A stretch of 52,900 bases of DNA from a virus. The translations under genes and the position numbers were made by a program. Each line of letters starts with the position of its first letter. Position 1 is the stretch's first letter. The DNA lies in IMG/VR virus record IMGVR_UViG_3300025118_000020, positions 1 to 52,900 of that record; one strand, written 5' to 3'. A model generated the notes under the pieces. It saw nothing but the letters and a program-made list of their open reading frames with translations, was not told where the DNA came from and did not search any database. Positions 27,720-32,587 of the stretch are shown here, piece by piece.

Positions 27720-28004
27720 CTATCTTCTTATAAATAGTTCACTCTTTACCATTTCAAACAGTTCTTCGAACTTTTCTCTTACGACCTCAACCTCTTCCTC
27801 AATCTTCTTTATTTGTTCATCGGACATTGCACCCTCCCTGGTTCCATGGTCTATTTGAGTGAGAAATGCATGCATCTTAATAATATTTTCGATCTGTTCT
27901 TTAGGGAAACCCCCCATTCTGATTATACTTCTTATTACTTTTTCTCGCCTTCTTTCCTGAAAGTCGACAATGTTATCTTCAATTTCGATGGTTGACGTGG
28001 GCAT
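27720..28004 (-). CDS. Small helical protein after SbcDC
   Basis: A 94-residue charged helical protein (MPTSTIEIEDNIVDFQERRR, then a Glu/Lys-rich coil) of unknown function. The start at the ATG at 28004 is preferred because AGGGGAAT precedes it; the longer reading from 28022 lies inside the upstream gene. It overlaps the 3' end of the SbcDC gene by 26 bases, so translation is coupled. The promoter for the next gene lies in its last codons. Confidence 0.5.
   Translation of the reverse strand: MPTSTIEIEDNIVDFQERRREKVIRSIIRMGGFPKEQIENIIKMHAFLTQIDHGTREGAMSDEQIKKIEEEVEVVREKFEELFEMVKSELFIRR
27731..27739 (-). promoter_or_regulatory. Late-promoter candidate before the 51-residue gene, AACTATTTA
   Basis: Minus-strand GAACTATTTATAAG, 24 bases before the ATG at 27706 and inside the last codons of the preceding gene. 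It would give the fibre/lysis block a transcript separate from the DNA-metabolism genes upstream. Inferred from recurrence. Confidence 0.5.
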
Positions 28005-31000
28005 ATTCCCCTTCCCTCTCAATGGTTATTTGTTGATCCACGCTATCCTTAAGAGAATCCAAATGAGAAATGAGAAGCACAGTTCCGAAATAAGACTTTA
28101 CCAGATCGAGTATTTGAACAAACCCTTCCATATTTCCTTCGTCTAGTGAAGTCCCCGGCTCATCGAGAATAAATAGATTCGGCTTTGGAAGATTCGAAAC
28201 CGAAAGCAACGAAAGTCTTATTGCGGTTGCCGCAACTGTCTTTTCTGCTCCCGAGCCCATTTCAAGCGGTCGAGCATCATGAGACGGGTGCTTGATAAGA
28301 ATATTTAATCTCTTATCGTCTTCCTCAAAAAAGATCTCAAAGTCAACAATGTTCGCAAGCACTTTCGCAATCTCGTTATTGATCACTGGTAATCTCTTCT
28401 TGATGATGTCGTATGAGATACCGTTTGAGTGCATACACTTCATAAAGAGATCATATGCCGTGAATCGACTTCTGAGATCTTCAAGCTCTTCTCTGGTCGA
28501 TTTTAGATTCTCCAACTTTTGTTCCAGTGAGCCGTGAAGTTTGTAGAGATTCAAGACGTTTTCTTTGCACTGTTCTAGCTCGTGTTGACAGCAGGAAATA
28601 TTATTTTCAGTTCTCTTTTTTCGAAGCAAGAGATCTTCAAAGTTCTCAATGGCATCTTTATTTTCTTCATAGGTTTTTATTTTATTTTCGCAAAAGCTTA
28701 TCTCGTGCAAGAGAGAAGCGATGAGTGCTTCATTCTTTTCGATGTTAAGTTCACGGTTTCTAATTTCACTGATGAGGTTCTTTTGTTTTTGAAGAATCAA
28801 ATTATATTTGTTCAGTTGTTCCTGAACTGTTTCTGGGTTTATGTTCTCCAACTCTTCTTTTAGTTTCTCGTCCTCGACCTTTAAAACCGCAAGCTGATCC
28901 TTATCGGCCCCAATGGAAACCTTTGCCAAGTGGGCATCGGAAATGAATTTACAATTCGGAAATGAATCTCCACATGGGACTTCATCGAGTCGAGAGATCT
29001 TTTTTTCTTTTCTCTCGATTTCTTCTTTCTTGCTGTCGAGGTCGAATAATAGGGCATCTGCCTCTTTTTTTATCCGGTCTGCTGACTCTTTCTCCTCCTC
29101 CAAAGAAACAATATCAAATGTATCCACAAACTCATTCACTTTAATGAGGCTTGCTTCATCCCTTAGCAACGCAACTGTTAAAAATTCGTTACTGCTTTTG
29201 AGAGATCGCATTTCAGCTTGCTTATCCAACAATTTCTTTTTTACCACAACGACATCGATAATCTCTGTGGGGATTGATTCTATTATCTTTTCAGTTTCTT
29301 GAAGATGATTCTCGAATAAACCAAGAGCAGTGTTCATTTGATCACAGGCATACTTTTGTTCTTCTGTGGCTTCTTCGTTTTCTTGCAGTTTCAACTTTGC
29401 ATCTTCTATTTCTTCGCCAAACTCTTTGCCCTCCAGCCTCCTCAAGGCGCCGCGCAAATCAGCTGCATCCTCTTTGGCCATTTTATATTTTCTTTCAAAA
29501 ATCTCAAGATCCAAAAACTTAGCAAGAATTTCCTTTCTCTTCGTGGAGCCCTCTTTGATAAAGTGCAAGGCTCCAAGCTGAGATGTCATGGAGGTTGCGA
29601 GAAAATCTTCAAGAGTTCCAAAGATTTTACGAATACGTTTATCCGTATCGTTCCTCGACACTCCATTTAAATCTGTCTCAACATCCAAAACGGGATCATA
29701 AACTTTAAAATCCAAATCGGTCTTTGCTTCGACAGTTTCGGATCCCTTTAGCTTTTTAATATACTTCTCTGATTGACGTGTAATCGTATAGATTTTATTG
29801 TCGATCTCTATCTTCGCTTGGCCTTGACCATATTCTTTGTTCTGGTTGATAACATTTAAATTTTTCCTCTCGTTCTTGGAGGTTGAGTTAAAAATTGTAT
29901 AAAGGATGCTATCAATGATACTGGATTTTCCAGAATAATTCTTTCCGAAGATCCCGACTGTTCCGACCAATTTTTCGAAATCAATATAATTCCCTTCACC
30001 ATAGTTGAATAGATTATCCCATTCCAGTGATTTCAGCTTCCAATTAATATTTCTGGAGATTTCTTCGCTCTCTTCCACAATCGTGTTGTACTTGCTGTTG
30101 AGTTCATAAATCTTCTTTAATAGGTCCTCGGGTGCTTCGTAATCTTGCAAATATTCTTTAATGAGATTTTCCTGCACCACGATATCTCGAAGATCTTCTT
30201 CTCCAATGTTAATCGTCAAATCATCTAAGTCTGCACGATCTCCGAGGGCGCGGTTAAGAAAAGTAATGCTGCTCGGCTTAAATTTTGCTTTTGCAACATC
30301 AACTGCTCGCTTCATCCTGTTGAGGGGCAGATTGTTGTTAGATACAAGGCGTAGGCGCGAACCTTCGGGAATTTCGAGCCCCCTTGGCATTCTGCCTTTC
30401 TTTGTTAGTTCGATTGTAATGAACGGTTTCGGGTTTTCAAGTTCAATGTGCCGAACATTAAAATTATCTTTGTCTTCGATCTCCCAAATCAAAAATCCCT
30501 TATCATTGGTCTCGCCGTGGTTTTGTTGAACAAGCGACCCACAATATCTAATCCGCCCTTCTTTGTCGAGAATTTGATTTGTCTTATGGATGTCTCCAAG
30601 CATCGCAAAATCAAATTCTTCGAAGATCGAAATATCGTTCTCACCGTGCTCCATCACCCAACCGGCATCTGTTTGGCACCCACTTACAGATCCATGGTAA
30701 AGGGCAATGTTTATTTTTTCTGGGTCTGCTGGTTCAGCCCAGCTATCTGTATCAAAAATTGAAAGATTATTAAAAATAACCCCCTCACCAACTTCCCACT
30801 CACCTGAGTTTTTGAGCAGTTTGATGTTTGGATCATCTATCGCCTCTACTATCGGCGAGACTGCATCCTGTCGATGAATCGTTCGTAAGTTGCCATCGTG
30901 GTTGCCCAGAGTTACAAATGTCGGGGCGATGTCCCCGAGGCTTATCAGAAATAGCGCACACATATCAAAATATTCTGGGCTTAGCTGTGTCTTTGTGTGT

Positions 31001-31137
31001 GCCACATCTCCGACAACAACTATAGCGTCAACTTTTTCTTCAAATAGCTTTTTATAAAGTTGATTGAAAACCTCCTTGTATTCCGTGTGATATTTAAGAT
31101 TACGAATGTGAATGTCTGCTAGGTGTGCTATCTTCAT
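27979..31137 (-). CDS. SbcD-SbcC (gp47-gp46) fusion: recombination nuclease and ATPase in one chain
   Basis: A 1,052-residue protein joining two subunits that are separate in T4 (gp47 and gp46) and bacteria (SbcD and SbcC). Residues 1-350 are a metallophosphatase nuclease: LADIH (Asp8, His10), VVGDVAH (Asp44, His47), LGNHD (79-81) and LGDIHK (about 180-184). From 366 an SbcC/Rad50 ATPase begins, with Walker A GKNYSGKS (398-405), long coiled coils and a hook CGDSFPNC near 720. Then come a signature-like MGSGAEK (about 958) and Walker B/D-loop LFILDEPGTSLDEG (about 987-1000). I start at the ATG at 31137, which overlaps the primase stop as TAATG. It should process DNA ends for recombination-dependent replication. 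Confidence 0.92.
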   Translation of the reverse strand: MKIAHLADIHIRNLKYHTEYKEVFNQLYKKLFEEKVDAIVVVGDVAHTKTQLSPEYFDMCALFLISLGDIAPTFVTLGNHDGNLRTIHRQDAVSPIVEAIDDPNIKLLKNSGEWEVGEGVIFNNLSIFDTDSWAEPADPEKINIALYHGSVSGCQTDAGWVMEHGENDISIFEEFDFAMLGDIHKTNQILDKEGRIRYCGSLVQQNHGETNDKGFLIWEIEDKDNFNVRHIELENPKPFITIELTKKGRMPRGLEIPEGSRLRLVSNNNLPLNRMKRAVDVAKAKFKPSSITFLNRALGDRADLDDLTINIGEEDLRDIVVQENLIKEYLQDYEAPEDLLKKIYELNSKYNTIVEESEEISRNINWKLKSLEWDNLFNYGEGNYIDFEKLVGTVGIFGKNYSGKSSIIDSILYTIFNSTSKNERKNLNVINQNKEYGQGQAKIEIDNKIYTITRQSEKYIKKLKGSETVEAKTDLDFKVYDPVLDVETDLNGVSRNDTDKRIRKIFGTLEDFLATSMTSQLGALHFIKEGSTKRKEILAKFLDLEIFERKYKMAKEDAADLRGALRRLEGKEFGEEIEDAKLKLQENEEATEEQKYACDQMNTALGLFENHLQETEKIIESIPTEIIDVVVVKKKLLDKQAEMRSLKSSNEFLTVALLRDEASLIKVNEFVDTFDIVSLEEEKESADRIKKEADALLFDLDSKKEEIERKEKKISRLDEVPCGDSFPNCKFISDAHLAKVSIGADKDQLAVLKVEDEKLKEELENINPETVQEQLNKYNLILQKQKNLISEIRNRELNIEKNEALIASLLHEISFCENKIKTYEENKDAIENFEDLLLRKKRTENNISCCQHELEQCKENVLNLYKLHGSLEQKLENLKSTREELEDLRSRFTAYDLFMKCMHSNGISYDIIKKRLPVINNEIAKVLANIVDFEIFFEEDDKRLNILIKHPSHDARPLEMGSGAEKTVAATAIRLSLLSVSNLPKPNLFILDEPGTSLDEGNMEGFVQILDLVKSYFGTVLLISHLDSLKDSVDQQITIEREGEYAHVNHRN

Positions 31138-32075
31138 TATACACTCATCGCCTGATGAAACAGGCAAACCTCCTCGGTCATTAGGGTTGCATTCCGTTTT
31201 CTTTTCAAGAACTCTTCGCGATACATCTCTCCAACATCATCAACCCCCGAAGTATCAATTTTATAAACTTCAACACCGTATTCAAGAAGCTTGTTTATAA
31301 TCTTCATCGATTTCCTTTCAGCATCAAAATCCAAAGCAAGATAAACAGTTGTATCATTCTTTATGATTTCGTGCATCAGCTTTGATTTTTCAGATAAAGT
31401 TGATCCAAGAAGAGGCACAGTGTTATGCCCCGCAACAATTGCGTCGAATACCCCTTCCACAACAATTAAATCTTCTTGAAAGTTTAAAAAAAGTTCATCA
31501 AAAATAATGGTATTGCGTGAAACTTTGGGATTCTTATATTTTTTCCAATCTCCATTATAACTCCTGGCGACGAAAAAGTTAATGTTTCCTTCCAAATTGA
31601 ATGATGGAATAACAACGTAGCCTTCGTACTCGCCCTTGCCACAAAACCCTATTTTCCACCGACAGATATCTAACTTTGTTATTCCGCGATCTCTTAAATA
31701 TTGTCGAGCAGCAAGAGAAGAGAGGGGTAGATTTTTGTTGACGAGTGAAACAAACTCTGCTGGTAGCTCTAGCCTCTCCTCCCTCTCAATCTCATTGAAT
31801 GGATCGAAAAGCAGATCGAATTCTGAAATATCAACTTGCTCTTCGAACTCACCCCACGCTTTGTAATCGAGATAAGACCCGTGCTTTCGAACGAGGCTTC
31901 GGATTTTTCTCCCCGAATAGTCGCAGACCCAACACTTAAAACATCCGTTACTTAAATTAACTGAAAGTTTTGGCTTGTGATGATCACACTTGGGACAATA
32001 AAATAGAAATTCCTTTCTTTCCCTTCTGTATTCTCCAAGAACATCTCTTAAGATTTTAAGTTTTTTCGCCTGCAA
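31137..32075 (-). CDS. DNA primase (zinc finger + TOPRIM)
   Basis: A 312-residue DnaG-type primase that makes RNA primers on the lagging strand. The zinc finger is CPKC (27-30) with nearby histidines and CWVC (48-51). A linker/RNAP-basic region follows. The TOPRIM catalytic fold has VVEGVFDA (Glu207) and ALDFDAE (Asp249, Asp251). There is no helicase domain, so a separate helicase is expected elsewhere in the genome. The start is a TTG at 32075, the best choice as AGGA lies 9 bases before it; there is no in-frame ATG near. It overlaps the resolvase gene by 28 bases and is followed by SbcDC through TAATG. Confidence 0.88.
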   Translation of the reverse strand: MQAKKLKILRDVLGEYRRERKEFLFYCPKCDHHKPKLSVNLSNGCFKCWVCDYSGRKIRSLVRKHGSYLDYKAWGEFEEQVDISEFDLLFDPFNEIEREERLELPAEFVSLVNKNLPLSSLAARQYLRDRGITKLDICRWKIGFCGKGEYEGYVVIPSFNLEGNINFFVARSYNGDWKKYKNPKVSRNTIIFDELFLNFQEDLIVVEGVFDAIVAGHNTVPLLGSTLSEKSKLMHEIIKNDTTVYLALDFDAERKSMKIINKLLEYGVEVYKIDTSGVDDVGEMYREEFLKRKRNATLMTEEVCLFHQAMSV

Positions 32076-32587
32076 AGCTCTAATCCTGCTCTCGCAATTA
32101 TTAGTGAATCAGCCCGATCATAAGAATCGGGTGATGGATTATTCTGCTTTGTGTATCTTATACCAAACTGGGGGTCGTTGTCAAGTAAATGTTGAAGAAC
32201 CACCTTCTTAGCCTTTGTTCCCCTGGGGACCTTGATCCCACAGAGCTTTCTGGCCGACGTTGAGGCAATGAACTCAGGCTCCATCTCAAAGATCTCCCAA
32301 ACGAGATAACTTACTATACCATTAATCTTGGATAATGTCGAGAGTGTTTTTGCAGAAGAGAAGCCTGATCTAAACGACTGTAAGCTTTCTTCAATATAGA
32401 CCTTATCTATGGAGTGGGTATCCTCTATTTCCCACAGTTTGTTTTTAATGAACGTTGCTTTGGAAAGCAAAGATGGGAATTTATTTTTATTCCTCGTATC
32501 AACGGCCTCACAAAGAATAATACTTCCCTCTTCGTCTATCACCGTTATTCCAGTAATAGAGGTTGAGATATCAAGTCCTAGAATCAT
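32048..32587 (-). CDS. RuvC-like Holliday junction resolvase
   Basis: A 179-residue RNase H-fold endonuclease that cuts branched DNA before packaging. Acidic residues match the RuvC set: Asp6 in MILGLDIST, Glu66/Glu67 in VYIEES, and Asp157 with Asp160 in DSYDRADSLIIA. T4 does this job with the unrelated endonuclease VII (gp49), so this phage uses a different resolvase. Its ATG at 32587 overlaps the stop of the upstream baseplate-type gene as TAATG, so it is translated in the same transcript. Confidence 0.85.
   Translation of the reverse strand: MILGLDISTSITGITVIDEEGSIILCEAVDTRNKNKFPSLLSKATFIKNKLWEIEDTHSIDKVYIEESLQSFRSGFSSAKTLSTLSKINGIVSYLVWEIFEMEPEFIASTSARKLCGIKVPRGTKAKKVVLQHLLDNDPQFGIRYTKQNNPSPDSYDRADSLIIARAGLELCRRKNLKS

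Follow-up and report, generated by a model that had tools for sequence, protein, structure and literature searches.

Canonical Mre11-Rad50 heads are 2:2 complexes in which cutting is gated by ATP, and E. coli SbcCD and the archaeal and eukaryotic Mre11-Rad50 proteins all carry a CxxC hook. In each of these systems the nuclease and the ATPase are separate chains. Separate chains are also found in phages T4 (gp47/gp46), SPO1 (gp21.3/gp21.9) and S-SM2 (gp47/gp46), which encode both activities in the order sbcD, sbcC, the pair being separated by two small genes in T4, five in SPO1 and one in S-SM2. Single-chain forms are known as well. Yoshida, Claverie and Ogata (2011) described thirteen Mre11/Rad50 fusions, which are spread over bacteria, eukaryotes and plasmids and include R555 of Mimivirus and one from a Bacillus phage. 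According to the same authors, viral fractions of aquatic samples are rich in R555-like sequences, and the genes next to these include phage-like primases (PMC3175470). They argued that some of the marine R555-like sequences come from phages, and noted two deviations in the nuclease site of R555, namely GDxxH and a His-to-Asp change (PMC3175470). Since the C-terminus of Mre11 lies ~28 Å from the N-terminus of Rad50 in the T. maritima complex, a short linker could join the two chains and leave the complex unchanged (PMC3175470).

The gene described here lies in a 52,900-nucleotide stretch of viral DNA (the window) and is a new, intact and ordinary member of this already described kind of fusion. 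The sequence-only reading of the window had implied that the fusion was novel, which does not hold since fused Mre11/Rad50 proteins, phage and marine viral ones included, were published in 2011 (PMC3175470); the finding of a fusion as such is no surprise to a specialist.

A single frame encodes SbcD and SbcC

The window gene is one unbroken frame of 1052 residues on the minus strand, with its ATG at 31137 and its stop codon ending at 27979, exactly the position and length that had been claimed for it. It comprises the following features.

27979..31137 (-), fused SbcD-SbcC (Mre11-Rad50) gene, 1052 aa, from its domains and the single frame of its relatives
30448..31137 (-), Mre11/SbcD phosphoesterase domain, residues 1-230, from Pfam Metallophos, the motif table and the 7dog match
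30253..30435 (-), capping domain, residues 235-295, from the strand/helix pattern of the model and the 7dog match
30184..30252 (-), flexible linker, residues 296-318
30067..30183 (-), helix pair, residues 319-357
30043..30066 (-), junction of the two parts, residues 358-365
29503..30042 (-), Rad50/SbcC N-terminal ATPase lobe, residues 366-545
28432..29502 (-), coiled coil, residues 546-902
28951..28974 (-), hook apex, C722-x6-C729 in place of the usual CxxC
27982..28419 (-), Rad50/SbcC C-terminal ATPase lobe, residues 907-1052, from the alignment and Rad50 matches in the PDB

As in R555, an Mre11/SbcD-like nuclease (residues ~1-357) precedes a Rad50/SbcC-like ATPase (~365-1052) in the same chain. 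Pfam recognised Metallophos (calcineurin-like phosphoesterase) at residues 1-165 (E 1.5e-11) and AAA_23 at 371-589 (E 6e-9), while PHROG_77 (SbcC-like) matched residues 209-1045 (E 1e-53). Both the sbcd and the sbcc models of NCBIfam matched, each below its cut-off, and the sequence matches among solved structures (PDB) were Rad50 and Mre11 proteins. The AlphaFold2 model, built with 71 sequences (mean pLDDT 81, pTM 0.47), gave the order nuclease, capping domain, linker, helix pair, ATPase strand from residue 365, coiled coil and second ATPase lobe. With a pTM of only 0.47, the relative placement of these domains is not established by the model.

The fusion is genuine

A scan of viral contigs yielded 402 stretches coding for a relative, and in the best 80 of the 402, which were examined, the match lay in one uninterrupted frame in every case (80/80), a few of these loci (e.g. 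L003 and L073) being cut by the contig ends. These other assemblies were checked for a break of the frame near residue 355, and neither a stop nor a frameshift was present there in L003 or the 79 further loci. L003, a separate contig, shares 97% identity with the window in residues 1-630 and runs in frame across the junction. It differs from the window by 173 synonymous and 24 non-synonymous changes, giving a dN/dS of ~0.036 overall and 0.037 in the linker plus helix pair, and these ratios show that purifying selection continues through the junction. Residues 355-367 had an identical length in 69 of 71 aligned sequences, and no homopolymer was found in the junction DNA of the window.

The joined frame could in principle be a sequencing or assembly error that merged adjacent sbcD and sbcC genes, and such errors do occur. 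Listeria phage LMTA-57 (L135, 3495-6524) was deposited with a single 1009-aa "recombination exonuclease", while the other full-length Listeria records listed are all in two or three pieces and of slightly different length, with the two-piece ones spanning one base more. The LMTA-57 frame, unlike that of the window, is probably a one-base artefact or a private change, and as a probable false fusion it serves as a control which shows that the single-frame test is able to catch such a case. For the window gene, the conservation of the frame in 80/80 related loci from many metagenomes excludes both chance and sequencing error. The same fusion was also sought in other phage genomes and was found not only in these relatives but in two distant clades and two isolated phages (see below). 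Together with the strong selection across a junction that is free of homopolymers, these results make an error vanishingly improbable; this explanation was rejected, and the proposal that the frame is a true gene fusion is fully supported.

The nuclease half

Residues 1-230 contain the five phosphoesterase motifs as ADIH, GDVAH, GNHD, YHG and GDIH, the last of which (motif V) has its first His replaced by Asp. The metal ligands D8, H10, D44, N79, H148, D182 and H184 were invariant in the 71-sequence alignment, save H10 (70/71). VIA matched S. aureus SbcD (7dog), a structure of the nuclease plus capping domain, to residues 1-295 with a Z of 24.8. The fold and the active-site motifs are those of E. 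coli SbcCD and archaeal and eukaryotic Mre11-Rad50, with the difference that motif V is GHxH in E. coli, and that the window protein has Asp where P. furiosus Mre11 has the metal-binding His206. Both deviations of the Mimivirus R555 nuclease site are shared by the window protein, as GDVAH (motif II) and GDIH.

It could be argued that GDIH in place of GHxH alters the site enough to leave a tether that binds DNA ends with weak or no nuclease activity. The change was seen in 17/17 fused proteins tabulated, the unfused proteins tabulated having GHxH except for GDLH in a T5-like phage, and the same His-to-Asp change is reported for R555 (PMC3175470). However, the remaining metal ligands are near-invariant, a metal can also be bound by Asp, and a dN/dS of 0.047 against L003 shows that purifying selection on the nuclease part is strong. 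We therefore consider such a tether to be improbable and favour a working nuclease.

Linker, helix pair and junction

The segment that joins the two halves begins with a flexible linker, with a pLDDT of 37-49 around residues 291-310 and a length of 20-23 residues in the 71 aligned sequences. It is followed in the model by two helices (319-333 and 337-357) that appear to sit in the place of the Rad50-binding helix-loop-helix of Mre11, an assignment made by position only. On the same positional assignment of the helix pair, the window protein retains the capping plus helix-loop-helix segment between nuclease and ATPase, as expected of an R555-like protein.

The ATPase half

All of the metal-site and ATPase motifs that had been claimed to share one frame are present. 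The N-terminal lobe carries the Walker A motif GKNYSGKS, and the C-terminal lobe the signature SGAEK and Walker B FILDEP. For the residues tabulated over 71 sequences, Walker A (K404), Q-loop (Q520), signature (S962/G963), Walker B (D992/E993) and His switch (H1025) were invariant. VIA matched E. coli SbcC (7yzo_D) to residues 366-1052 with a Z of 30.6; the rows of the VIA-align table covered mostly residues 365-1052, the list being filled by the ATPase domain.

The coiled coil is modelled as two long helices (545-719 and 730-902) with a turn near 720-729, in agreement with the position of the apex. At the apex, the CxxC zinc hook is replaced by a C-x6-C arrangement in which C729 was present in 71/71 of the aligned sequences and C722 in 63/71 (absent from 8/71); judged from this alignment, the usual zinc hook is absent from the clade of the window protein. 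Despite the missing CxxC, the domain belongs with Rad50/SbcC by its fold, its motifs and its coiled coil.

Relatives, distribution and ancestry

The window protein (1052 aa) is shorter than R555 (1351 aa), and comes from a tailed phage whereas R555 comes from a giant virus. Its link to giant-virus proteins other than R555 consists of fold matches: the best full-length matches among viral proteins were DNA-repair proteins, from giant viruses such as Tupanvirus, Harvfovirus and Yasminevirus and from the Tenacibaculum phages pT24 and PTm1. Among isolated phages, pT24 (L085) is fused too, and the AAA-domain protein of Microcystis phage Mel-JY01 (WWT39521.1; L083) has the same fusion, belongs to the same length class and has a primase upstream. 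The Mel-JY01 protein is, however, only ~30% identical to that of the window, falls in a separate clade in the tree and has CKHCC at its apex. One distant fused clade surrounds this phage (L083, L102-L120) and a second surrounds a 735-kb uncultured phage (L084, L122-L131). When 30 viral loci of these two clades were added, the gene was in one frame in 29, with L121 being split.

In L121 (3304-6544), the homologue is divided into overlapping frames of 224 and 860 aa at query residue ~197. At the same site, directly behind the GDIHK motif, the fusion homologue of a 484-kb uncultured phage (L082, LR756508.1, 7944-12169) is broken by ~900 bases with a 305-aa ORF containing a TnsA-like endonuclease domain (PF08722, E 6e-6). 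The L082 insert is probably a homing-endonuclease insertion; no Rfam match to a self-splicing intron was found in L082 at E 0.1. Since the first L121 frame has a similar extra tail, the split is possibly a remnant or a relative of this insert.

A maximum-likelihood tree was constructed on the nuclease and both ATPase lobes of 17 fused and six unfused proteins (T4, S-SM2, SPO1, Moorella phage, Providencia phage PSTCR5 and E. coli), R555 not being included. The 17 fused proteins fell on one side of a branch with 100/99 support and the six unfused proteins on the other. A single fusion event is not proven by this tree, because the fused sequences came from searches that started with the window protein and its relatives. 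It is conceivable, although we would lean somewhat against it, that the phage fusions found here stem from one ancient fusion and form an Mre11-Rad50 lineage of their own, in which the metal site has been remodelled (GDIH) and, for the clade of the window protein, the hook is not CxxC. If true, this would differ from the view of recurrent fusion (PMC3175470).

Cellular matches numbered 11, all in metagenome-assembled genomes (MAGs). Fused phage genes were present in MAGs labelled as bacteria or an archaeon (L091, L092, L093, L094 and L096). L091 resembles the viral locus L018 in gene layout and L094 (labelled Candidatus Nitrosopelagicus) is very close to the viral locus L106, so that we rejected these as cellular fusion genes; they are apparently mis-binned phage contigs. 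A Bacteroidales MAG (L099, 6037-8825) encodes a stand-alone 277-aa SbcD-like protein with GHIH, downstream of a primase-like gene, and no adjoining SbcC-like frame was seen. A plasmid search with the window protein as query returned nuclease-domain matches only and did not recover the published plasmid fusions (PMC3175470).

Gene neighbourhood and proposed role

Two genes that precede the fusion bear on its role.

31137..32075 (-), DnaG-type primase, phrog_47, E 5.6e-38, immediately upstream of the fusion
32048..32587 (-), RuvC-like Holliday junction resolvase, phrog_159, E 4e-10, before the primase

The primase stop codon overlaps the start codon of the fusion (TAATG), and the primase itself is 23% identical to that of SPO1 (E 1e-17). 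Of the 109 loci that extend far enough upstream, 90 have a primase relative near the fusion and 68 have a RuvC-like one. The window also codes for terminase, portal and tail-sheath genes, and is therefore a fragment of a contractile-tailed phage. Phage-like primases likewise accompany the marine R555-like scaffolds (PMC3175470), and the long contigs examined here confirm what that study could see in short reads only, namely that tailed phages contribute some of the abundant marine relatives of the Mimivirus fusion, as genes in one frame that are linked to a primase.

The window protein is likely to process DNA ends as a nuclease with Mre11 and Rad50 (SbcD and SbcC) in a single chain, and most likely serves a tailed marine phage in end resection for recombination-dependent replication. 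Two chains would form the canonical head complex by pairing at both the ATPase heads and the nuclease domains, and the coiled coil with its cysteine hook may be able to bridge DNA ends. From the fold and the conserved residues, the Mn-dependent nuclease site would be expected to work as that of E. coli SbcCD does, with ATP binding and hydrolysis gating the access of DNA ends to it. By comparison with T4 gp46/47 and from the gene order, the resected 3' ends would feed recombination-dependent phage replication, and the neighbouring primase and RuvC-like resolvase would act in the same pathway. The sequence-only reading proposed that a fixed 1:1 ratio and the coupling of ATP use to cutting were gained by fusion; these would add little, and the coupling need not be invoked, since the canonical two-chain complexes are already 2:2 and ATP-gated. 

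Another role, which we regard as unlikely though well worth weighing, is that the protein acts chiefly in breaking down host DNA or against host defence, with end resection for replication being secondary. T4 gp46/47 is annotated as required for host-DNA degradation too, and the window gene is on a contig with head and tail genes. The fusion nevertheless directly follows the primase and the RuvC-like resolvase, many relatives share this gene order, and in SPO1 there is also an adjacent primase, which follows sbcC. We therefore prefer the replication role. No functional or biochemical study of any viral Mre11-Rad50 fusion was found in the literature searched. A single-chain Mre11-Rad50 of ~120 kDa would be convenient for studying, by structure and biochemistry, how ATP gates the processing of DNA ends.

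Further upstream, between 32587 and 52868, the window contains large minus-strand ORFs of 390, 343, 342, 1166, 1176, 337 and 2966 aa. A Pfam search of these ORFs, the 2966-aa one excepted, gave no match, nor did PHROGs for the first five (390, 343, 342, 1166 and 1176 aa). Relatives of the 390- and 343-aa ORFs are found upstream of the fusion in many loci.
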